Below, piece after piece: positions 1,257 to 16,428 of a stretch of DNA of 64,000 bases; positions within the stretch are counted from its first letter, which is position 1; each line of letters opens with the position of its first letter. The translations under genes were made by a program, and so were the position numbers. The notes beneath the pieces are model-generated. The model saw only the letters and a program-made list of their open reading frames with translations. It was not told where the DNA came from and did no database searches. The stretch spans positions 1 to 64,000 of the forward strand of contig MVRN01000036.1 in the NCBI GenBank assembly GCA_002067965.1, read 5' to 3'. This stretch comes from Pelotomaculum sp. PtaU1.Bin035 (GTDB taxonomy: Bacteria; Bacillota; Desulfotomaculia; Desulfotomaculales; Pelotomaculaceae).

Positions 1257-1286
1257 GTTGACCGGAGAAACTGGAGGCCAAGTAAT
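1257..1286 (+). repeat. Short sequence shared with 10105-10134 (possible transposase-gene remnant)
   Basis: The segment beginning GTTGACC and containing CTGGAGGC and AAGTA closely matches 10105-10134 in the same orientation. The second copy is the 3' end of a decayed minus-strand transposase gene. Read on the minus strand, both copies encode YLASSF. Copy one is probably a relic of the same insertion sequence, so the nitrogenase-like module lies between two related remnants. A shared RNA leader motif is the alternative. Confidence 0.4.
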
Positions 1287-1310
1287 ATACTTACTGGCCT
1301 TTTTATTATT
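1276..1310 (+). terminator. Terminator- or attenuator-like hairpin upstream of the nitrogenase-like operon
   Basis: GGCCAAGTAA pairs with TTACTGGCC with one bulged A, and the stem is followed by TTTTTATTATT. It lies between the candidate promoter and the start codon at 1327, so it could attenuate the operon or be an inherited terminator. Confidence 0.5.
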
Positions 1311-1326
1311 CTATCAGAGGTGAACT

Positions 1327-2808
1327 ATGACCATGATTAATCTCAAAGAACCTGAGGTTCAAATTAGGGAAGTCCGTTTAAAGTCCATTACCGGATTTGC
1401 GGGGACTGCCGGAGAACTGATTCAATGCGTGTATGCAGGTAAGCTCAAAGACAGGACGCGGAGTTTCAGCCAGAGCATGCAATGCAGTTCCGCTTCGGCC
1501 CTTTGTCAGCTTTCCATGATCCTGGATGCTGCCGTAGTAAATCATGCGCCCGTGGGTTGTGCGGGGGATTTCTCCTCTTTCCATTTTACTTACCGGGCAG
1601 GTCAGATGGAAAGAAATTTGCCTTACCTTGTGGGACGTTATTTCAGTACTAATATAGAGGAAACGGATACAATTTTTGGAGCCGTGCAAAAACTTGAGGA
1701 TACCATCCGGGAGGCTTATCGCCGAGTCCGGCCCAAGGCCATTTTTGTTACGACATCCTGCGCTTCGGGAATTATCGGTGACGATGTGGAAAGTGCAACC
1801 GAAGACTTATCGAAGGAGCTGGGGATTCCGGTGGTTTCATGTTTTTGCGAGGGTTTCAAATCAAAAGTCTGGACCTCCGGATTTGATTCGGCTTACCATT
1901 CCGTTGTCAGAAAAATTGTGAAGCCGCCGCGCCAGAAGAACAACAAAGTGAATATCGTCAATTTTTTTGGTACGCATGTTTTTGATGATTTATTGCAAAA
2001 ACTGGGATACGAACCGAATTATATCGTTCCGTTCTCCACGATTGCCGGGCTGGAGTATACTTCGGAAGCGGCAGCCACCATTCAGATTTGCCCCACGCTG
2101 GGGAGTTATATCGGCGCGGCGCTGGAAGAAGTCTACGGAGTGCCGGAAATCAAATCTCCGCCGGCCTATGGCATTGCCGGAACAGACAGTTGGATGAGAG
2201 AACTGGGAAAGGTGCTGGACAGAGAGGAAGAGATAGAAAAAATTATTGCCGGCGAACATGAGCGGATCCTGCCCAAACTCAATGAATACAGGGAAAAATT
2301 TAGGGGTAAAACCGCTTACCTGACCGCGGGCGCGGCGCATGGACACGCCATTATCGCTCTATTACGGGAGCTGGGATTTGAGGTGAAGGGCGCCGCTATT
2401 TTCCATCATGATCCGCTCTACGATAACGGAGATCCTGCCTCAGACGCGCTGGCCCACGATGTAAGAACCTACGGAGACGTTTCCAACTACTACGTTTGCA
2501 ACAAGCAATCCTACGAAATTGTCAATCTGCTAAACCGGCACCGGCCCGACCTGCTGGTAGCCAGACATACCGGGATGGCGCATTGGGGAGGAAAATTAGG
2601 CATTCCTTCTTTCCTGCTGGATGACGAGCAGTTCGGGTTTGGCTACCAGGGGATCTTAAACTATGGGGAAAGGATTGAGGATACCATCAACAACCGGGAA
2701 TATCTGGAGAATTTTGCCCGGCACAGCACCACGCCGTATACGAAGTGGTGGCTGGAACAGGAGCCGTTTACTTTTTGGGGAGGTGGCGCGTGTGGCGAAG
2801 CTTATTGA
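1327..2808 (+). CDS. Nitrogenase-like component 1, alpha (NifD-type) subunit
   Basis: A 493-residue member of the NifD/NifE/BchN/MarD superfamily. Three cysteines lie where NifD holds its P-cluster: C53, C78 (in HAPVGC) and C145 (in TTSC). C255 matches the cofactor cysteine region (NifD C275). The NifD cofactor histidine H442 appears replaced by phenylalanine at about F438 in GFGYQG. Together this indicates an electron-transferring iron-sulfur enzyme that is probably not a classical N2 reductase. The ATG is preceded by AGAGGTGA. The beta-like gene overlaps the 3' end by 17 bases, and ABC transporter genes follow. No NifH-like reductase, NifB or NifEN is visible. The substrate is unknown; reduction of an organosulfur compound, as in MarBHDK, is one possibility. 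Confidence 0.8.
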   Translation: MTMINLKEPEVQIREVRLKSITGFAGTAGELIQCVYAGKLKDRTRSFSQSMQCSSASALCQLSMILDAAVVNHAPVGCAGDFSSFHFTYRAGQMERNLPYLVGRYFSTNIEETDTIFGAVQKLEDTIREAYRRVRPKAIFVTTSCASGIIGDDVESATEDLSKELGIPVVSCFCEGFKSKVWTSGFDSAYHSVVRKIVKPPRQKNNKVNIVNFFGTHVFDDLLQKLGYEPNYIVPFSTIAGLEYTSEAAATIQICPTLGSYIGAALEEVYGVPEIKSPPAYGIAGTDSWMRELGKVLDREEEIEKIIAGEHERILPKLNEYREKFRGKTAYLTAGAAHGHAIIALLRELGFEVKGAAIFHHDPLYDNGDPASDALAHDVRTYGDVSNYYVCNKQSYEIVNLLNRHRPDLLVARHTGMAHWGGKLGIPSFLLDDEQFGFGYQGILNYGERIEDTINNREYLENFARHSTTPYTKWWLEQEPFTFWGGGACGEAY

Positions 2809-3598
2809 GCAGCCTAGATATTCCTGCGCCTTGGGGGTACAGCAGTCTGTGGTGGCCATCAAAAGAGCAGTGCCGGTTCTGCACGCCGGGCCGGGCTGCA
2901 GCACAAAAATCGCCGCCCTGCTCGGGCAGGGTGAGGGCTATGCCGGAGGCAATACCATCCCCTGCACCAATACCGGTGAACCGGAAGTGGTTTACGGGGG
3001 CGAGGAAAAGCTCAAGAGTGTGATTGAAGGGTCTTTTAAAGTAATCGACGCCGATCTCTATGTGGTGCTCACAGGCTGCACGTCGGATATCGTGGGGGAC
3101 GACATCGGCAGAGTCGCGGCGGATTTTCAGGAACAGGGCCGGCCGCTTGTTTACGCGGAAACCGGCGGCTTTAGGGGCAGCAATTATGCAAGCCATGAAA
3201 TTGTGGTGAAAGCCATTATTGATCAGTATGTGGATAAACTACGGCGGAACAAAAGGGTTGTAAAAGGGCTGGCCAATGTTTTTGCCACCATCCCGTACCA
3301 GGATCCTTTCTGGAACGGAAATTTGGAAGAAATCAAGAGAATATTGGAAGGGATTGGTCTGCAAGTCAATATTCTCTTTGGGGAAGATTCCGGTGGCGTC
3401 GAAGAATGGCAAACCATTCCCGACGCAGAGTTTAATATTGTGGTAAGCGCCTGGGCGGGACTGGAGATAGCGGAGCATCTTCAGGAAAAGTACCAAACTC
3501 CTTATTTCCACTTTCCCTATTTGCCGGTGGGCGGGCGGGAGACCTCCGTATTTTTAAGACAGGTCGCTGATTTTGCCGGCCTGCAGCAGGCCAAGTAG
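2792..3598 (+). CDS. Nitrogenase-like component 1, beta (NifK-type) subunit, N-terminal part of a split gene
   Basis: The GTG start at 2792 follows GGGGAGG. The 268 residues carry C12, C36 (in AGPGC) and C96 (in LTGC), spaced like the NifK P-cluster ligands C70/C95/C153, so with the alpha chain the full set of six P-cluster cysteines is present. The frame stops at TAG 3596-3598, just after QQAK. The homologous protein continues without a gap in the -1 frame from 3595 (VEAFIKKEEEK and onward) to 4107. A single missing base near 3593-3598 would restore one protein of about 440 residues. This could be a real inactivating mutation, a sequencing error, or less likely programmed frameshifting. Confidence 0.7.
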   Translation: MAKLIEQPRYSCALGVQQSVVAIKRAVPVLHAGPGCSTKIAALLGQGEGYAGGNTIPCTNTGEPEVVYGGEEKLKSVIEGSFKVIDADLYVVLTGCTSDIVGDDIGRVAADFQEQGRPLVYAETGGFRGSNYASHEIVVKAIIDQYVDKLRRNKRVVKGLANVFATIPYQDPFWNGNLEEIKRILEGIGLQVNILFGEDSGGVEEWQTIPDAEFNIVVSAWAGLEIAEHLQEKYQTPYFHFPYLPVGGRETSVFLRQVADFAGLQQAK

Positions 3599-4107
3599 AA
3601 GCTTTTATTAAGAAAGAAGAAGAAAAATTTTACAATTATCTGGATATAACCATGGATTTTCTGCTGGAGTTCAGGTATGGACTGCCCAGGAGATTCTATA
3701 CCCTTTTGGATGCCTCCTACGCTGTCGGGTTTTCCAAGTTTTTGCTGCATGAGTTGGGCATTATTCCGGCCAAGCAATTTATTGTCGATAACACGCCCGG
3801 AAAATTCCAGGGAGCAATCAGCGAGCAGTTTGCCCATATATCGGCGTTAAGGTCGGCGGAAGTAGCCTTCCTGACGGATGGTGGTGCCATCCAGGAAGAA
3901 ATCCGGGCGGATGAAAACAAAAATAGAGCGTTGATTCTTGGTAGCGCCTGGGAAAGAGAGCTTGCCAAAAACCTGGGTGCCGATCTTTTGATTTTGAGTG
4001 TACCGGTGACTTATAGACTGGTGCTAAGTTGCGCCTATGCCGGCTACAGGGGAGGGATCCGGGCGATCGAAGATATTTATGGCCGTGTACTGGACACGTA
4101 TCGATAA
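3595..4107 (+). pseudogene. Nitrogenase-like component 1, beta subunit, C-terminal part (frame-shifted)
   Basis: This continues the beta-like chain in the -1 frame: VEAFIKKEEEKFYNYLDI, then the segment from M at 3652, ending in GGIRAIEDIYGRVLDTYR, which resembles the NifK C-terminal GGIRLIEDI region. The ATG at 3652 has no ribosome binding site, so independent translation is doubtful. With the preceding part it makes a normal-length subunit. The next gene starts about 45 bases later. I read the two pieces as one gene carrying a one-base frame change. Confidence 0.65.
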
Positions 4108-4153
4108 AAAATAGATGAGTAATTTGAATTTTGGAAGAATGGAGGGGTTACGC

Positions 4154-4942
4154 TTGAAAAAGGCATTACTTAACATTCATAATCGAATGATCAGTCTATA
4201 TATCATTATCGTATTTTTTGTTCTTTGGCAACTAATCCCCTACACAGGGCTTGTGAACCCCCATTTTCTTCCGCCACTGTCGAAGGTGATTGCCGAGACA
4301 TTCAAACTAAGCCTGGGAAACATTGTTCTGGATATTGTGCATAGCCTGAGGAGGATTATCATCGGCTTTTTTGTGGCAACGGCAGTAGCCTTGCCACTCG
4401 GATTTGTGCTGGCAGGTGCTCTGCCCAAGCTGGGTAAGTTGCTGAATCCTCTAATGATGTTTTTATCCCAAATTCCTCCTTTTATCCTTTTTCCTGTTTT
4501 CGTAATTATTTTTGGTATAGGGGAAGGAGGGATCCTCACAGTGATTTTTTGGTCGGCACTCTGGCCGATTCTGTTCAACACGATTGCCGGAACCCAGATG
4601 GTGGATCCGCTTCTTATTAAAAGTGCGCGCTCCATGGGATCGAGTCAGTTGACAATTTTTTTAAAAGTCATTCTTCCCGGCACCCTTTCATCCATTATGA
4701 CCGGTATGCGCGCCGCGATGACTTTTTGCTTCATGATGCTCATTGGGGCCGAAACCATGGGCGCCAATTCCGGATTAGGCTGGGAGATCAACATGTCCCA
4801 AAGGATGGCGGTTATCCCACGCATTTATCTTGTGGTGATGATCGTGGCGATAGTGGGCCTGGCGATAAACTATCTGTTTGAATGGTTTGAGCGTAATACC
4901 ATCATTTGGAGAGAGGATGCGCCTTCAGGACCGGCTGATTGA
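4154..4942 (+). CDS. ABC transporter permease, SsuC/TauC type
   Basis: A 262-residue inner-membrane permease with about six hydrophobic segments and the EAA-type coupling loop (IKSARSMGSSQLTIFLKV) that docks the ATPase. The family imports sulfonates, taurine, nitrate or pyrimidine precursors. I chose TTG 4154 because GGAGGGG lies seven bases upstream; the in-frame ATG at 4115 has no such site. The gene follows the nitrogenase-like pair and precedes a second, similar permease and a binding protein, so the transporter probably serves the nitrogenase-like enzyme. The substrate cannot be read from the sequence. Confidence 0.8.
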   Translation: MKKALLNIHNRMISLYIIIVFFVLWQLIPYTGLVNPHFLPPLSKVIAETFKLSLGNIVLDIVHSLRRIIIGFFVATAVALPLGFVLAGALPKLGKLLNPLMMFLSQIPPFILFPVFVIIFGIGEGGILTVIFWSALWPILFNTIAGTQMVDPLLIKSARSMGSSQLTIFLKVILPGTLSSIMTGMRAAMTFCFMMLIGAETMGANSGLGWEINMSQRMAVIPRIYLVVMIVAIVGLAINYLFEWFERNTIIWREDAPSGPAD

Positions 4943-5047
4943 GGAAGTACGGTATAAGAAGGGAGTGATCGCATATTGCAAAACATAAGAAGAGAATAAC
5001 CTAATTTAAACCTTATGGAATGTACACGATTGTGAGGGGGTGTTTGC

Positions 5048-5824
5048 ATCAAACCTGTTATTGATAAAATAAAGAGCATAACTTATGCCTCTCTTGCTTT
5101 AGTTGCCTTCTTTGCCATTTGGCAGTTTGCATCAACAAAAGAAATTGTACCGAGCGCGGTTATTCCAACGCCTGTGACAGTGGCGGGAGCAGTTATCGAT
5201 TCTCTCAAATCCGGCCAGTTAATCAGGCAAACAGCCTTAAGTCTTGTGAATGTAGGGATTGGATTTCTGCTGGCAATTTTTATTTGTATCCCTTTCGGCT
5301 TGGTTATCGGAACCTATTATAAAATTTTTGAAAAGAGCCTGATGCCTTTTTTGCGAATGTGTGAAAAAATTAATCCTTTCGCCCTTTTCCCGGTTTTTAT
5401 GATATTGTTTGGCATCGGCCATCTCGAAAAGGTGATGGTGGTGTTATGGGTATCGCAGTGGCCGTTGCTTTTTAACACCATAGACGGGGTAAGAAATCTG
5501 GACGTAACAATCATTAAGTCCGCACGTTCCATGGGTGCCAGGAAGGGGAACTTTCTTTTGAAAGTCATTGTACCGATGACGCTTCCGTATATCTTTACCG
5601 GTGTCAAACAAAGTGTGCAGCTTGCTTTTTTCATGATTATAGCCTCGGAGATGGTGGGGGCGAACGAGGGCTTGGGATGGCAGTTCTTCTCTGCAAACAT
5701 GGCTTATAATGTGCCGATGATGTTTGGCATCATTATTTATGTTACAGTCTTGGCCATTATTATCAACGTTCTGTTCACTAAAATCGAGAAGTGGTTTTCA
5801 GTGTGGAAACAATCCACATTTTAG
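5048..5824 (+). CDS. ABC transporter permease, SsuC/TauC type, with a non-standard start
   Basis: A second permease with the coupling loop IKSARSMGARKGNFLLKV. Its first membrane helix (ASLALVAFFAIWQFA) is in frame upstream of the first GTG at 5174, yet no ATG, GTG or TTG exists between the in-frame stop at 5033-5035 and that helix. GAGGGGG at 5034-5040 is well placed for ATC 5048, giving an N-terminus KPVIDKIKS that aligns with LKKALLNIHN of the first permease. The gene either starts at ATC or carries a point change or frameshift. Together with 4154-4942 it forms a heterodimeric channel. Confidence 0.7.
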   Translation: MKPVIDKIKSITYASLALVAFFAIWQFASTKEIVPSAVIPTPVTVAGAVIDSLKSGQLIRQTALSLVNVGIGFLLAIFICIPFGLVIGTYYKIFEKSLMPFLRMCEKINPFALFPVFMILFGIGHLEKVMVVLWVSQWPLLFNTIDGVRNLDVTIIKSARSMGARKGNFLLKVIVPMTLPYIFTGVKQSVQLAFFMIIASEMVGANEGLGWQFFSANMAYNVPMMFGIIIYVTVLAIIINVLFTKIEKWFSVWKQSTF

Positions 5825-5874
5825 GATGAAGCATATTTGCAGATATGAAAAAACATAAGGAGGAGAGAACGATC

Positions 5875-6927
5875 ATGGCAATAACAAGAAATACAAAATT
5901 AATTATAGGCGGCATCGTTGTGCTGGCAGTGATTGTGGGCATCGGTGTTGATTTTTTGTCGGGGCAAAAGGGGCAGCCCAGTTCGACAACAGCTGGCGGG
6001 AGTAAGGAACTGGCCGAGATTCGCACTTATACACGTACCGACTGCGGGATCACTCCCTATCTCGTTGCCGATCAGAAGGGCTTTTTCGCCGAAGAGGGCC
6101 TTAAATTGGTTTATACTGGCACTGTAGCCTATCCTCAACAGTTGGCATCCGTCCTGAATGGAAACAACGATATCGGAGATGCGCATCCAAATGAATTGGC
6201 CATGTTTATCAAAGGTGGCGCCAAAGTGAAAGGCGTTAGCCGTGATGACCTTGAACCTATTGATGAAGTCAATGCCGAATACCGTCACATGAAATATTTT
6301 GTGAGTAAAGATTCAGCGATAAAATCCTGGAAGGATATCCAAAACTATAAAGTAGGGCAGCAGATCCTGATCAATGGCACGATTCCAAGCTGCACAACTT
6401 TTGTCCCGTCCAACATTTTTGATAGATATAACCTTGACCGGAATAGGCTCAAGTTTGTAACTTTTGATTCCGATCAGCAGGCTCTTCAGGCTGTCACGCA
6501 AGGTGATATCGATATTGCTCAAGTGCATCCTCCCTATTATAATCTAGCGAAAGAAATAGGTCTTGTGCAAATTGGAGATTCTTTTGATGCCGGCCTGGGT
6601 GCGGCAACCGGCGTTGCTTTGTATTATTTCCCTGATAAGTATATCGCCGAACATCCTGACCGGGTGCAGGCCTTTGTCCGGGCGATCACTAAGGCGCAGA
6701 TTTGGGCGAATCAAAGCCAAAACCGCAAGGAAGCGGCTGAGATAACTGCAAAAGCATTGAATGTGAACTCAACCGGCACCCATTATTATGCCTTTGATAC
6801 TTCCATTCCGGAAGAGCAGATTCAGCCATGGCTTGACGACCTGGTATACGGCGGTTTCCTTAAAGAAGGAGAACTTGCGGTGGCGGATATCATAACCCAT
6901 CAATTTGAGGATCCGTCGGTAAAGTAG
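5875..6927 (+). CDS. ABC transporter substrate-binding protein, SsuA/NMT1 type
   Basis: A 350-residue extracytoplasmic binding protein with a hydrophobic N-terminal segment (residues about 10-30) and the two-lobe NMT1/SsuA fold, recognisable from VADQKGFFAEEGL and the GDIDIAQVHPPY region. The ATG at 5875 follows AAGGAGGAGAG; an earlier in-frame ATG at 5845 has no site. Unlike most Firmicute binding proteins there is no lipobox cysteine after the hydrophobic stretch, so it may stay anchored by the uncleaved helix or be secreted. It follows the two permeases; the matching ATPase lies about 4 kb away at 10918. The ligand is unknown. Confidence 0.8.
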   Translation: MAITRNTKLIIGGIVVLAVIVGIGVDFLSGQKGQPSSTTAGGSKELAEIRTYTRTDCGITPYLVADQKGFFAEEGLKLVYTGTVAYPQQLASVLNGNNDIGDAHPNELAMFIKGGAKVKGVSRDDLEPIDEVNAEYRHMKYFVSKDSAIKSWKDIQNYKVGQQILINGTIPSCTTFVPSNIFDRYNLDRNRLKFVTFDSDQQALQAVTQGDIDIAQVHPPYYNLAKEIGLVQIGDSFDAGLGAATGVALYYFPDKYIAEHPDRVQAFVRAITKAQIWANQSQNRKEAAEITAKALNVNSTGTHYYAFDTSIPEEQIQPWLDDLVYGGFLKEGELAVADIITHQFEDPSVK

Positions 6928-7001
6928 AAATCAGATCAGTTCCCCCATGCGATTTGTACTTGACGGGATATTTTATTAATTAGTTTTTGGAGTGGTATGG
7001 G

Positions 7002-9287
7002 ATGACTCAGTCCGCGACGCTGAATGTGTATGGGATGACTTGCACTTTATGTTCCGCTGTTATAGAAGCAAGTCTGGAAAAAATGGATGGTGTCATTAAG
7101 GTAAAAGTGAATTATGCGACGGAGAAAGTGTTTCTTGAATATGAAGAAAGCATGTTAAACGTGGAGGACGCCACCAGAGTTATTGAAAAGCTCGGGTTTT
7201 CCGTCGTCGAGAAAAACACGGAAAGCGCTCAGGAAACAGATTATGCTGCTGTTGAGCAACGCAAGTTGTTCCGGTGGCTGATCTTATCCCTTGCTTTGAG
7301 CGCGCCGCTCTTTCTATGTATGGTATCTGAGGCTGCGGGCTTTTGCCATAAAGTATTGGACCCGAATACTACGACGAAATGGGGCTATATGCTGGAAGTA
7401 ATTCGTTACCGACTGTATGGTTTGCACGATTGGCGACTGCAGATTGCGATTGCCACGCCCGTTCAGTTTATTGTCGGCTACCGGTTCTACCTCAATTCCT
7501 ACCGCTCGCTGGGAGTGGGCAAAGCCACAATGGACATCCTGGTGGCGTTAGGATCCAGCGCGGCTTATTTTTACAGTGTATATATTTGTATTTTCCAAAG
7601 GGCGGCTTATAATTTGGGGATAAAAAGTCTGTATTTTGAAGCATCCGCTACAATCATCACCCTTGTACTTTTGGGCAAGTATCTTGAATTGCTTGTCAAG
7701 GGCAGAGTGTCCCAAGCAATCAAGACACTGATTGAACTTTCACCGCAAAATGCCCGGTTGCTGAAAGAAGGGCAAGAGACCTACGTGAACATTGCCGATG
7801 TCCACGTAGGGGATGTTGTTGTTGTCAAGCCCGGTGAAAAAATACCTGTTGACGGCGTCGTAACAGAAGGCTATTCCCTGGTGGACGAGTCGATGTTGAC
7901 CGGCGAGAATCTTCCTGTTGACAAAAAGGCAGGTGATTTTGTCACGGGGGCCTCGATGAACAAGTATGGCACATTCAAGTTAAAAGCTGCCAAAGTTGGA
8001 AATGAAACCAGGCTTGCTGAAATCATCCGGTTTGTGGAGAATGCCCAGAGCAGCACGGCCCCAATTCAAAGAATAGCCGATAAAGTGGCGGGATACTTTA
8101 TTCCCTGTATTTTAGCCGTCTCGGCAATTACGTTTTTGATCTGGTATTTTGTCATTTTAGATCAGACGGCTTATGTAATTGATGTAGCTATTATCAATGC
8201 CGTTGCCGTATTGGTGATTGCTTGCCCTTGCTCCTTAGGCCTGGCAACGCCGGCGGCCGTTATGGTAGGGCTCGGCAAGGGTGCTGAAAACGGCATATTG
8301 GTTAAGAATGGAAATGTACTGGAAAAGGCTTGTAAGATCGATACCATTGTTCTGGATAAAACCGGTACCATCACGACGGGAAAACCACAGGTTACACAAG
8401 TGGTGTTGCTGGATGCCAGCCTAACCCAAATTGACGAAAAAGAGATTCTAACCGTTGCCGCCACTGTGGAAAAGAATTCGACGCACCCCCTTGGCCGGGC
8501 GATTTATGATAAAGGGTTGGAGCTTTCCGGTGCAGTGCCGGGGGATCCGGACGAATTTGTGGAAATGCCGGGGAAGGGCATTAAAGCAAGAATTGCCGGC
8601 AAGAACGTGCTTATCGGTAATTCTGAGTACCTGTCTGAAAACGGTATAGAACTCGCAAAAAGCGAATCCCTGTGGAATCCCCTTTATAACAGAGGAGAAA
8701 CTGTTGTGTTCATTGCCGTGAATGGTGTACTGACTGCTCTGATCGGCCTCTCCGATACCATTAAAGAAAATACCGGGGAGCAGATTGAAAGATTGGAAAA
8801 GATGGGCATCACGGTATATATGATCACTGGTGACAATATAAAAGCCGCCCAGGCCGTTGCGGACGCCACAGGCATAAAAAATGTACTGGCTGAAGTTTTG
8901 CCGGAACATAAGGCGTACCAGGTTGAACTGCTGAAATCTAAAGGACATGTCGTCGGCATGGTCGGGGACGGAATCAACGATGCCCCTGCGCTGGCCTCCG
9001 CGGATGTCGGCTTTGCCATCGGTAGCGGAACGGATGTTGCAATAGAAACAGGCGGCATTGTGTTGATTAAGCATGATCTGTCGGCTTTACCGGCTGCCGT
9101 AAAGTTGGCTAGAATGACGATGGTCAAAATCAAGCAAAATCTTTTCTGGGCCTTTATTTATAACGTGATCGCCATACCGATTGCCGCAACCGGCCATCTG
9201 AGCCCTACGGTTGGAGCTGCTGCCATGGCTTTGAGTTCTGTGTCGGTACTGTTAAATTCCCTGAATCTAAAAAGACTGAAGCTGTAA
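7002..9287 (+). CDS. copA: P1B-type heavy-metal ATPase, CopA-like
   Basis: A 761-residue metal-transporting P-type ATPase. One N-terminal HMA domain has GMTCTLC (C14, C17). The membrane metal site is the CPC motif in [12 protein letters not shown], the phosphorylation motif is DKTGT, and HPLGRAI and [11 protein letters not shown] complete the nucleotide and hinge domains. CPC with YN in helix 7 and [13 protein letters not shown] in helix 8 is the pattern of Cu(I) exporters. ATG 7002 follows GGAGTGG. It sits in the accessory module between the binding protein and a flavin-type protein. Whether it exports copper or loads metal for the nearby metalloenzyme is open. Confidence 0.85.
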
Positions 9288-9334
9288 ATCGGTCTGGGGG
9301 TGATAGACGCTTTAGTATCAAGAGGAGCCAGCCA

Positions 9335-9433
9335 TATGTACTCATTCTTCCGGCATGGAAACCGGCGAAGTCTGGAGTGCGGCGGCACATATTTAAAATA
9401 TTATATAAGGAAGTGTGATCATGAGTATTGTTG
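9335..9433 (+). CDS. Possible 32-residue small ORF
   Basis: ATG 9335 follows AGAGGAG and the frame runs to a TGA at 9431-9433, overlapping the next gene's start by 13 bases. The peptide is rich in Arg, Tyr and Cys and I do not recognise it. The decent ribosome binding site is the only support. Confidence 0.2.
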
Positions 9434-9897
9434 AAAATAAGGTTCTTGAGTATCTCAGTCAAACCAAGCTGATTATCCTGGCGACAGTAAATGAAGATAA
9501 AGAACCGGTACTACGGGTGCTGGGCGCTTTTGCCGTTGATGGATTGGTTACTTATTTTTCGACTAACAAAAACACCGCCAAGGTAAAACAAATACAATCA
9601 AACCCCACTGTTTCGGTTTTTTACCAGCATGAGAATCAAGAGGCGCCGTTCTTTGTAAACGTGGCTGTGACGGGAAAGGCAAGTGAAGTTACGGAAAAGG
9701 AAGAACTGGATAAGGTAATTAAATTAATATCTGACCGGAGTCCAAATTTTAAAAGTAGAGTCGAGAATAACGAGATAATTGACACTATATTCTTCCGGGT
9801 GGATCCCAAGGAAGTGAAGGTGCTGGATTTCAGTAAAGGCGCCGGTCCAAACGCCGTTCAAGTAATATCGGTGAGGAACCAGCCAAGTGTAGATTGA
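9421..9897 (+). CDS. Pyridoxamine-5'-phosphate-oxidase-like FMN-binding split-barrel protein
   Basis: A 158-residue protein of the PNPOx-like split beta-barrel family, seen in ILATVNEDKEPVLRVLGAF and the strand pair around FFVNVAVTGKA. Such proteins bind FMN, F420 or heme and often act as small oxidoreductases. ATG 9421 follows AAGGAAGTG. It lies downstream of the CopA-like ATPase and immediately upstream of a scrap of another nitrogenase-family gene, so it belongs physically to the accessory module. Its substrate is not predictable. Confidence 0.65.
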   Translation: MSIVENKVLEYLSQTKLIILATVNEDKEPVLRVLGAFAVDGLVTYFSTNKNTAKVKQIQSNPTVSVFYQHENQEAPFFVNVAVTGKASEVTEKEELDKVIKLISDRSPNFKSRVENNEIIDTIFFRVDPKEVKVLDFSKGAGPNAVQVISVRNQPSVD

Positions 9898-10018
9898 CCT
9901 GTTGAAGATAGAATGGGCGGGTATTGTTAATGATTTAGACCTGCGGCGATGTGGAATAGGCGACAGCAACTACAGTTACGCTTTGACCAGATTTATTGCA
10001 GATGACCTGGGAATGTAA
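9893..10018 (+). pseudogene. Remnant of a second nitrogenase-family component-1 gene
   Basis: An open stretch of about 41 codons without a start ends in GDSNYSYALTRFIADDLGM followed by TAA. This resembles the central segment of NifK/NifN/BchB-type proteins, where a cluster of the form GDSNYxxALTRFLxxELG precedes the second Rossmann-like domain. The intact genes at 1327 and 2792 do not contain it, so it derives from a different paralogue. Nothing recognisable continues after the stop. The family call rests on one short motif. Confidence 0.4.
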
Positions 10019-10101
10019 TGTATTTGTTAATAATACCAGCTTAATATAAGAGCGGGGTGGTTCGGAAATACGGAATAAAAATGAAACTGGGTAGCTATCA
10101 G

Positions 10102-10800
10102 TTAGTTGACCAGAAAGCTGGAGGCTAAGTAGTTTGTTCCAAAGGGGCAGGCTGCCAGTGGCAAGTATTGCTCCAGCAGCTCAAAAAAGTTAAATCCAGA
10201 AACATTGAGCCTGGCATCAAGATGAATATTTATGGAATGGAGCATCACCCATCATGGCCAGCGCTTTTTACCACGGGCAAGCGCCTGTTCCAAGTGGTAA
10301 TCATTAAGAGTACGCTTGTTTACCCGTTCAGAGGAGGTTCGTTTTTTCATTTCTGATTTTCACTCGCGACTATTACGGGGGATCGGGGTAAATAACCGGA
10401 GATCCCATTCGGGCTTAGTATAGAAAGTCCGGCCATAAGAAGAAGACGAACACAAGTTCTTGTGAGAGCATGATTTAATTTTACCCATAGCTAAAGGACA
10501 CCTCCACTTAATACGGCAGCGATCCTTAAGGAATCCATTATATATCATAGGAATTCCTTCCGAACAGATGGGTACACCGTTTTCGCTAATGGTCATGGAA
10601 CCAGGAAATTTAACGTTGCCTTAATTCTTGGTATTGAGAGCAATCACAGCTTGGATAGGACATCAGCATACTGGGAGACTCTCTTCTTATCCGATAGGTA
10701 AATAAGGAGTAGGTTATCAACCAAGAATTCTTGATACTCCGAATGGGTACGCCACAAGCCGAGCAAAGGAATCACCTCAAAACCCGGGAATTGTGGTAAT
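10102..10800 (-). pseudogene. Decayed IS transposase (zinc-ribbon DDE type)
   Basis: Pieces of one transposase lie in different minus-strand frames. About 10670-10790 encodes VIPLLGLWRTHSEYQEFLVD. 10360-10596 encodes a Cys-bearing segment ending YTKPEWDLRLFTPIPRNS. About 10270-10355 encodes KRTSSERVNKRTLNDYHLEQ, and 10102-10260 encodes INIHLDARLNVSGFNFFELL ending at a stop. The order N to C is preserved but stops and frame changes separate the pieces, so the gene is dead. It splits the ABC ATPase gene at 10918 from its permeases and binding protein. Confidence 0.7.
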
Positions 10801-10917
10801 AAATACCAGATGATTCAATTTTGGGAGGAAATGAAAAACCCCCGAGTCCTGGAATCCAGTCATTCCGGACATCGGAGTTTCCGAAAATACTCTGTTTTGT
10901 AAAGGAGGGTTCCTTGA

Positions 10918-11820
10918 ATGTCAAAAAAGAGCAGCGAAGCATTGGGAAAAGTTAAGTATTCCACCGAGCAGCAGGGAAAAATTGAAATAAAGAATATTAG
11001 CCGCATTTTTACAATCAGACGCAAAAATAATGAAGAAAAAAAAGATTTTATCGCAATTGAAAATGTAAACCTTACTGTCTACAAAGGTGAATTTTTAGCG
11101 ATTGTAGGTCCCAGCGGCTGCGGTAAATCAACATTGCTGGACATTATCGCGGGACTGTCCAAGCCTGATTCCGGTGAAATTCACATTGACAATAAACTGA
11201 TTACAAAACCAGATCTTGACCGCGGTATTGTCATGCAGGGATATGCCCTGTTTCCATGGAGGACTGTAAGGAAAAACGTTGAATTCGGTCTGGAGATAAA
11301 AAAGGTTCCCAAAAACCAAAGAAAGGATATTATTGATAAGTATATAAATTTGGTAGGTTTGAATGAATTTAAAGATCGGTATCCTTACGAACTGTCCGGT
11401 GGAATGAAGCAAAGAGTGGCAATCGCCCGTGCTTTAGCCTACGATCCGGAAGTGCTTCTCATGGACGAACCCTTTGCGGCTGTTGATGCGCAGACAAGAG
11501 AAACTCTTCAGGATGAATTGCTGAGAATATGGGATGAGACCAGTAAAACAATTATTTTTGTTACCCACAGTATTGATGAGGCAGTGGCATTAGCGGACAG
11601 GGTTGCTGTTATGTCTACTAATCCGGGGACAATCAAAGAAATTATTGAAGTAAAGCTTCCCAGGCCGAGACGTGTGAGTGATGTGATTTCTTCCGCCGAC
11701 TTCAGCTGGATTAGGCATAAGATATGGGAATTACTCCAGAATGAAGAAAAAGAGAGTAGAAAGATTGTCAAGCCGGAAAAAGATTTGGCCGAAGAAATTT
11801 CAACATATGCACAATTATGA
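10918..11820 (+). CDS. ABC transporter ATP-binding protein, SsuB/TauB type
   Basis: A 300-residue ATPase: Walker A GPSGCGKST (64-72), Q-loop region QGYALFPWRTV, signature LSGGMKQRVAIARAL, Walker B LLMDEPFAAVD and switch His in FVTHSIDEA. It is the SsuB/TauB/NrtD type that energises import by SsuC-like permeases, and it supplies the subunit missing from the permease/binding-protein cluster at 4.1-6.9 kb. ATG 10918 follows AAGGAGGG. The about 4 kb separation, with an insertion remnant between, suggests an originally contiguous operon broken up by insertions. Confidence 0.85.
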   Translation: MSKKSSEALGKVKYSTEQQGKIEIKNISRIFTIRRKNNEEKKDFIAIENVNLTVYKGEFLAIVGPSGCGKSTLLDIIAGLSKPDSGEIHIDNKLITKPDLDRGIVMQGYALFPWRTVRKNVEFGLEIKKVPKNQRKDIIDKYINLVGLNEFKDRYPYELSGGMKQRVAIARALAYDPEVLLMDEPFAAVDAQTRETLQDELLRIWDETSKTIIFVTHSIDEAVALADRVAVMSTNPGTIKEIIEVKLPRPRRVSDVISSADFSWIRHKIWELLQNEEKESRKIVKPEKDLAEEISTYAQL

Positions 11821-16279: not shown

Positions 16280-16302
16280 CTACTAAAATTCTAAAACTAA
16301 AT

Positions 16303-16392
16303 AGTTGGCTAGGGGTGCCGTAAGGCTGAGAGAGAATAATCTCAACCCTCTGAACCTGACGCGGGTAATACCGCCGTAGGGAAGCAGAAGCT
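16303..16392 (+). promoter_or_regulatory. TPP riboswitch (THI element)
   Basis: The conserved THI-box blocks occur in order: GGGGTGC, GGCTGAGA, AACCCT with GAACCTGA, and GGGTAATACCG ending in AGGGAA. It lies between a consensus promoter and thiS. A terminator hairpin 37 bases downstream is the likely expression platform, so thiamine pyrophosphate should lower expression of thiS-G-H-E-C. Confidence 0.95.
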
Positions 16393-16428
16393 GTGTGTTG
16401 TTATTTGTACCCGCAGTTTCAAAAAAAT

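Follow-up and report, generated by a model that had tools for sequence, protein, structure and literature searches.

A Mar-related nitrogenase-like reductase with a conserved importer block in Pelotomaculum: a probable organosulfur-scavenging module

Introduction

Nitrogenase-like enzymes that break C-S bonds by means of large Fe-S cofactors form a young field with one structure, that of methylthio-alkane reductase (Mar), and one further in vivo function, that of isethionate reductase (Isr). In the Mar structure Cys270 and His429 are the ligands of the [Fe8S9C] cluster, and the latter residue, located on a Mar-specific loop beside Arg428, was missed by earlier sequence analyses since it does not stand at the NifD position (PMC12552129). 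The isethionate reductase IsrBHDK and its importer SsuCAB are essential together in Rhodobacter capsulatus, and IsrD has only one of the three P-cluster cysteines, the Cys88-equivalent, and lacks a counterpart of Cys275 (PMC11423573). The heliobacterial proteins NflDK5 have been named "group IV-C, MarDK" (PMC9147875), and the organometal SAO system has been reviewed (PMC13188914). Here we report on positions 1,327 to 11,820 of a stretch of 64,000 nucleotides (the window) from contig MVRN01000036.1 of Pelotomaculum sp. PtaU1.Bin035, where a nitrogenase-like (nfl) alpha/beta pair is followed by the genes of an importer. We propose that the locus probably represents an anaerobic organosulfur-scavenging module, in which import would be followed by reductive C-S cleavage for sulfur assimilation.

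Cluster ligands of the alpha and beta chains

The alpha chain NflD (493 amino acids, 1327..2808) and the beta chain NflK (2795..4107) are nitrogenase-like proteins of the family PF00148, as a preliminary description of this DNA had stated; what it overlooked is that the reading frame of the beta gene is broken. The family match has an E-value of 3.9e-80 in the alpha chain and is divided between two frames in the beta chain (1.5e-44 and 1.3e-9), with one -1 frameshift at approximately 3595-3598. A phmmer search of the PDB with the alpha chain returned MarD of Rhodospirillum rubrum (9fmg_A) first at 1.6e-133, ahead of the next molecule, a clostridial NifD (6.2e-37), by about 97 orders of magnitude.

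All six P-cluster cysteines noted previously are present, namely C53, C78 and C145 in the alignment of the alpha chain and those of YSCA, GPGC and TGCT in the sequence of the beta chain. The claim that the alpha chain lacks the cofactor histidine is not correct. C255, R413 and H414 align with Cys270, Arg428 and His429 of MarD, i.e. with the ligands and the contact of the [Fe8S9C] cluster, the Arg-His pair on loop I being a hallmark of Mar, and the claim repeats the error described together with the Mar structure (PMC12552129). The residues C53, C78, C145, C255, R413 and H414 are invariant in the clade of the window protein (82 of the 82 members examined).

On the proposed substrate side Trp195 and His375 of MarD are kept as W182 and H360, and the equivalents of Phe199, Cys73 and Gln74 are also kept. 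The third residue assigned to the site of the proposed substrate sulfide, His194, is replaced by V181. This position holds histidine in 4/4 strict MarD proteins and isoleucine, valine or leucine in 77/77 wider clade members, and among the four nearest relatives of the window alpha chain it is isoleucine in three and glycine in one. As the ligands are kept and His194 is replaced, we expect an unchanged cofactor scaffold and probably a changed substrate, and the enzyme probably prefers a compound other than that of strict MarDK.

Position among nitrogenase-like enzymes

Relatives of the query alignment were found at 489 loci in approximately 85,000 genomes; loci are designated by L numbers below. 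In a tree of 58 alpha-type chains, a set that leaves out IsrD, the strict MarD clade (100/100) is made up of R. rubrum MarD and clostridial proteins 71-79% identical to it, and the clade of the window (99/98) is its sister at 98/94. In the tree of the beta chains the window clade also stands apart from strict MarK, with the branching order left open. The test of a placement inside MarDK, proposed in the preliminary description, yields a sister clade and not a position inside. The group IV-C genes annotated as MarDK would accordingly comprise at least two families.

Other families were considered and dismissed. The alpha/beta profiles stay below the cut-offs for the nitrogenases and NifEN (nifD 130.9 of 653.6, VNFD 81 of 823, ANFD 62 of 874 and nifE 154 of 505 bits) and for BchNB, BchYZ and CfbD (BchN 63 of 420, BchB 76 of 490, BchZ 25 of 529 and the CfbD type 45 of 268 bits). 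Membership in Isr is ruled out by the presence of C53, C145 and C255 in the alpha chain.

Five loci, L049, L056 (Clostridium algoriphilum), L082, L098 (C. drakei) and L125, hold both strict MarD and members of the window clade, in some cases together with a third kind (the L032 clade). The two kinds are therefore paralogues which are kept next to each other. One stretch (L125-L126, G283:C15) carries three nitrogenase-like D-K pairs, from the window clade, strict Mar and the L032 clade, together with importers, CysK and MetY.

These observations bear on the idea that the pair is a plain methylthio-alkane reductase with the substrates of R. rubrum MarDK, i.e. 2-methylthioethanol, dimethyl sulfide and ethyl methyl sulfide. 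The conservation of all cluster ligands is in agreement with it, as are the methanethiol-using MetY-type enzymes nearby and the name MarDK given to the heliobacterial NflDK5 of the same clade (L055 and L057, alpha chains 71-72% identical; PMC9147875). The strict MarDK orthologues in the same loci, the separate clade in the tree and the replacement of His194 throughout the window clade argue against it, and we consider this idea unlikely, albeit worth keeping in mind.

The importer block and its binding protein

The pair is followed by ABC permease 1 (4115..4942; PF00528, BPD_transp_1, 1.5e-21), ABC permease 2 (5048..5824; PF00528, 4.7e-22), an extracytoplasmic binding protein of the NMT1/SsuA-like type with an N-terminal membrane anchor (5845..6927; PF09084, 8.6e-14) and, further on, the SsuB-like ABC ATPase of the importer (10918..11820). 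The profile searches bear out the gene list given previously, with the alpha and beta chains, SsuA/SsuC-type genes, a metal ATPase, a flavin mononucleotide (FMN)-type protein and the later ATPase.

The nearest relatives, which form a 100/100 subclade with the window, are metagenome-assembled genomes (MAGs) of Synergistaceae (L036) and Coriobacteriales (L044, L046 and L048). The order ssuB, D, K, permease 1, permease 2 and binding protein is the same in L036, L044 and L046, while in L048 ssuB has moved behind D-K; identities amount to 44-73%, and the window ATPase is 59-62% identical to the ATPase heading the block in the first three. As the block recurs in relatives from Synergistota and Actinomycetota, the package of reductase and SsuA/C-type importer, together with its conserved linkage, is real, just as had been suspected. 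In a genome of the same family (G097) the parts lie around three further D-K pairs, and an ssuB with 82% identity to the window ATPase precedes a CopA gene.

The binding protein is found in two of the 113 genomes of the order, both of which bear nfl genes. Of 399 genomes of the phylum, 8 encode it and 10 encode the alpha chain; 6 have both (hypergeometric P 3e-8 without the own genome). Most of its genes have a nitrogenase-like D-K pair within a few kb, and since these pairs belong to several clades (L119, L123, L126, L128, L129, L082, L071, L032) the importer type is tied to nitrogenase-like systems in general. Similar binding proteins were also seen beside BcrAD/HGD-D proteins (2-hydroxyacyl-CoA dehydratase-like), another type of ATP-driven reductase (L031:3034-6268, L120:8629).

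The structural model of the binding protein has a predicted local distance difference test score (pLDDT) of 82.8, with the core mostly above 90, and SsuA (2x26), TauA (6ssy), Thi5 and 3qsl are among its top fold matches in the PDB with E-values of 1e-12 to 1e-15. The nfl-linked proteins of this type all have H114, H148 and C183, and nearly all have C67, M149 and H228. The set is carried by the window protein and by those of L046, L044, L119, L121, L130 and others, and it does not occur in the SsuA-like binding proteins of other nfl loci. According to the secondary structure of the model, C67, H114, C183 and H228 are situated at strand ends or helix starts, which are presumed ligand-binding positions of this fold, and the Cys/His/Met set suggests a soft ligand or a metal.

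A sulfonate reductase would be a further alternative, with the importer taking up isethionate, taurine or a similar compound and the enzyme releasing sulfite as in IsrBHDK-SsuCAB. The logic of enzyme plus SsuABC-type importer is the same as in R. capsulatus (PMC11423573), and the binding protein has the SsuA/TauA fold. The scores nevertheless remain far under the cut-offs of SsuC (101 of 347 bits), TauC (96 of 342 bits) and SsuA (57.8 of 163.5 bits), and the cysteines missing from IsrD, two of the P-cluster and the Cys275 equivalent, are all present here, so that we regard a sulfonate reductase as very improbable.

Sulfur genes and regulation in related loci

To describe the gene context we considered 31 non-redundant loci of the clade and the genes within 8 kb. 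MetNIQ, MetY-family or CysK genes occur in 25 of the 31 loci, an importer of the listed types in 22 and NifH in 18. The metNIQ-D-K genes of L049, L093 (C. luticellarii) and L106 immediately follow an S-adenosylmethionine (SAM) riboswitch, as do D in L056 and MetY-NifH-MarD in L049. A T-box is situated 0.6 kb ahead of D in L062 and L063 (C. beijerinckii); its TGC specifier (read by eye) and TGGA/TGGG fit tRNA-Cys. The riboswitches and T-boxes indicate that the relatives are governed by the supply of methionine/SAM or cysteine. Together with the Met/Cys neighbors in the clade they lend support to the earlier suggestion of Mar as a parallel and of a system which imports and reduces a small sulfur compound. 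Before the alpha gene of the window no riboswitch was found in Rfam.

A shared leader element and partners elsewhere in the genome

The element GACCGGAGAAACTGGAGG lies 67 bases before the alpha gene and runs straight into an intrinsic terminator (leader and terminator 1260..1304, forward strand). Its hairpin GA-CCGG-AGAAA-CTGG-AGG occupies 1260-1277 and the terminator 1276-1304. As a loose pattern of the leader was found at control level, a site was counted only if its stem paired and a terminator adjoined it, the form being GA, a 4-bp stem, an A-rich loop of 4-5 nt and AGG. This yielded 50 sites in 1.87 Mb of nfl loci compared to 0.7 in shuffled sequences, and the sites precede nflD, K, H, B, MetY, MetN, MetQ, CysK, LysR, importer and PPOX genes. 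The hairpin covaries: if pairing is not required, all four stem pairs are formed in 27 out of 48 sites with a 4-nt loop and 15 out of 39 with a 5-nt loop, compared to 4 out of 31 with a 3-nt and 0 out of 27 with a 6-nt loop, where 2% would be expected by chance. Copies were found in several phyla, among others at L029 (-)10381 and (-)12173 (C50 of the Pelotomaculum genome itself), L063:9897, L093:1580, L106:7568, L056:8331 and L127:6570. The leader has no match in Rfam, and no description of it was found in the literature searches made. It is a candidate for a new attenuator and regulon marker, by which the regulon as a whole could be traced.

An open reading frame (ORF) of the DUF2292 family (PF10055) is located just upstream of several of the hairpins (L063 at approximately 9500-9650, L070, L087, L114, L122, L029, L158:1284-1487, L186:1191-1451), and this small protein is a possible RNA-binding partner of the leader. 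In another genus the ORF also stands before an aldehyde ferredoxin oxidoreductase-like gene (L186, L188, L190).

In the Pelotomaculum genome itself the leader is common to all three nfl loci, i.e. the window, C57 and C50, and precedes the pair of the window, nflH (C57:17708) and both nflB and the UroD-GS-nflD operon of C50; another site lies at C29:6782. The preliminary description reported no NifH partner, which is true for the window, but the genome has two NifH-type genes. One belongs to a true nif cluster (C118). The other is found at C57 beside another D-K pair, which has an SsuABC-like importer of its own and is accompanied by a UroD-family protein. This second NifH shares 82% identity with the one next to a clade member in L122. 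C50 has NifB-like, NifX-like, MetY, UroD-family and glutamine-synthetase-like (GS) genes, and a D gene with a K cut short. Since a NifH-like (C57) and a NifB-like protein (C50) are encoded in the genome, a Mar-type enzyme could be supplied in this cell. At C57 an ArsR-type regulator and a second P-type metal ATPase directly follow the D-K pair (L028:13987-16742).

CopA, PPOX and the remainder of the locus

All listed genes of 1327-11820 lie on the forward strand according to profile searches and sequence, and as the window begins with the first base of the contig nothing can be read upstream of it. Downstream of the binding protein a CopA-type P1B-1 ATPase, the second CopA of the genome, is encoded at 6987..9287 (TIGR01511, 564 bits, cut-off 397), with a CTLC (the CxxC of HMA) and a CPC motif, followed by a PPOX-family (FMN-type) protein at 9415..9897 (PF01243, 1.3e-14) which has relatives beside nfl DK in L031 (51%), L054 (60%) and L062 (42%). 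CopA had been counted as part of the package. The gene is there, yet its link is weak: a CopA is present in 22 of the 25 genomes of the family, which is why we dropped it as a core part, and besides the window only G097 has one beside nfl genes, adjoining the ABC ATPase. As these two nfl-linked copies are sisters, we keep CopA as a lineage-level association only, and its membership in the system is uncertain.

With CopA and the binding protein in view a metal or organometal(loid) system may be considered, in which the importer would bind a soft metal, a metal-thiolate or a methylated metal(loid), the reductase would demethylate it and CopA would export the metal. This alternative is kept alive mainly by the conserved Cys/His/Met set. 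The nearest models for the importer, SaoA and SaoP of the organometal SAO system (PMC13188914), point in the same direction, though below their cut-offs (SaoA 265 of 360 and SaoP 136 of 295 bits; SaoX 19 of 300 bits), and a CopA-type ATPase occurs in two loci. The methionine/cysteine riboswitches and genes in the relatives, the absence of CopA from all other loci of the clade and the lack of a recognizable selenoprotein gene among the ORFs read with TGA as selenocysteine speak against it, making it quite unlikely in our view.

Some features of the locus concern the condition of this copy. Frame 2 of the beta gene is closed by a TAG at 3596 and the PF00148 homology resumes in frame 1 from about 3598. 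Both before and after the single shift the protein is 67-73% identical to intact homologues, and the gene is unbroken at this site in the relatives compared. A programmed frameshift was ruled out, as there is no slippery heptamer and the homologues are unbroken, which leaves a frameshift mutation or an assembly error. For permease 2, an N-terminal comparison with its counterpart in L036 shows no canonical start codon at the corresponding position; its homology starts near 5048 (ATC after GAGGGGG), the first in-frame GTG being at 5174. The SsuB-like ATPase is displaced, with CopA, PPOX and about 1 kb of gene-free DNA (9900-10915) between it and the block. This 1 kb contains broken frames only and is perhaps a dead insertion.

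Unless the shift in the beta gene stems from an assembly error, the copy seen here may be inactive. The locus could be decaying, with no function in this organism. The frameshift, the missing permease start and the ATPase moved behind gene-free DNA would fit such a decay, as would the other beta gene of the genome at C50, which is reduced to a fragment of approximately 79 amino acids beside a small transposase-like ORF (L029:5538-6276). The rest of the locus is nonetheless open and well conserved, as is the beta chain on either side of the shift, and the genome is a MAG-type assembly of 128 contigs, a kind in which single-base errors occur. We judge decay to be rather doubtful, yet a point to be taken seriously.

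Beyond the ATPase a group II intron domain (RF00029, 12105-12181) without an evident intron protein lies before VWA/SpoVR-type genes, and an ordinary thiamine pyrophosphate riboswitch (16301-16399) stands ahead of a thiamine synthesis operon.

Proposed function

Given the methionine/cysteine control of the relatives and the homology to Mar, reductive C-S cleavage for sulfur assimilation is the best reading. A small organosulfur compound would be taken up by means of the membrane-anchored binding protein, the two permeases and the SsuB-like ATPase. Inside the cell the alpha/beta pair, equipped like MarDK with a P-cluster and a cofactor of the [Fe8S9C] type, would cleave a C-S bond reductively. 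The electrons would be provided by the NifH-type protein of C57 and the cofactor would be made by the NifB-type protein of C50. MetY/CysK-type enzymes would then incorporate the thiol, sulfide or sulfite released into methionine or cysteine. From the sequences, the Mar-type ligands, the position as sister to MarDK, the conserved importer block, the trans partners under the same leader, and the Met/Cys gene linkage with riboswitch control in relatives are evident; the reaction, the substrate class and a common compound for transporter and enzyme are what we infer from them.

Several points weigh against this proposal. The window itself contains no marB or marH, no riboswitch and no methionine or cysteine gene beside the pair. 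The same importer type serves quite different nfl clades, and so it need not carry the substrate of the enzyme. Invariant Cys/His/Met residues are odd for a binder of sulfonates or thioethers, and the frameshift, the displaced ATPase and the missing permease start may indicate decay.

One could go further and combine these aspects into a Mar-type [Fe8S9C] branch with a substrate of its own different from that of MarDK, and an importer whose binding protein offers a Cys/His/Met site to a soft sulfur ligand, a metal-thiolate or an organometal. SAM riboswitches, cysteine T-boxes and the undescribed hairpin-terminator attenuator of many nitrogenase-like clusters, the latter possibly read by DUF2292, would couple such a system to the supply of sulfur. 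Taken as a whole this combined picture is tentative, and we would not expect it to hold in all its parts. A widespread sister clade of Mar with riboswitch control and its own importer provides a testable route to new C-S chemistry, with a bearing on the anaerobic formation of methanethiol, sulfide or hydrocarbons by bacteria of soil, rumen and gut and on how the protein setting of the cofactor chooses substrates.

Comparison with described systems

The SAO importer SaoAPX is reportedly attributable to Haft and Gwadz (2023) and has been reviewed (PMC13188914). Its models score best among NCBIfam for the ATPase and the permease of the window, whereas all scores are under the cut-offs and neither selenoproteins nor SaoL were recognized here. 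With SsuABC/TauABC the importer shares the PF00528, NMT1 and ABC ATPase families and the binding-protein fold of SsuA/TauA/Thi5; it differs in its scores far under the cut-offs, in its two permease genes and in the Cys/His/Met residues at presumed ligand positions.

The set had been thought possibly undescribed; the enzyme clade has, however, been noticed in heliobacteria under the name MarDK (PMC9147875), and a nitrogenase-like reductase working with an importer has in principle been shown for isethionate (PMC11423573). IsrBHDK-SsuCAB is the closest published parallel, as a nitrogenase-like reductase acts there with an SsuABC-type importer. In contrast to our locus, IsrD is without two P-cluster cysteines and the cofactor cysteine, there is one permease, SsuC, and isrB and isrH are part of the operon. 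The heliobacterial NflDK5 is of the same clade as the window, but is split from strict MarDK in our tree and has no window-type importer block directly beside it.

MarBHDK of R. rubrum (9fmg, 9d9u; PMC12552129) resembles the pair over the full length, with approximately 43% identity in the alpha and 36-40% in the beta chain, in the P-cluster cysteines and the equivalents of Cys270 and Arg428-His429, and in the context of sulfur assimilation. The differences are the position of the window clade as a sister, the exchange of MarD His194 to Val/Ile, the marB-marH-marD-marK operon, of which marB and marH do not adjoin the pair and are absent from the window, and the dedicated two-permease importer attached to it. 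The Mar-type reductase with its importer is real and conserved; it is not categorically new, and it represents a branch separate from strict Mar.

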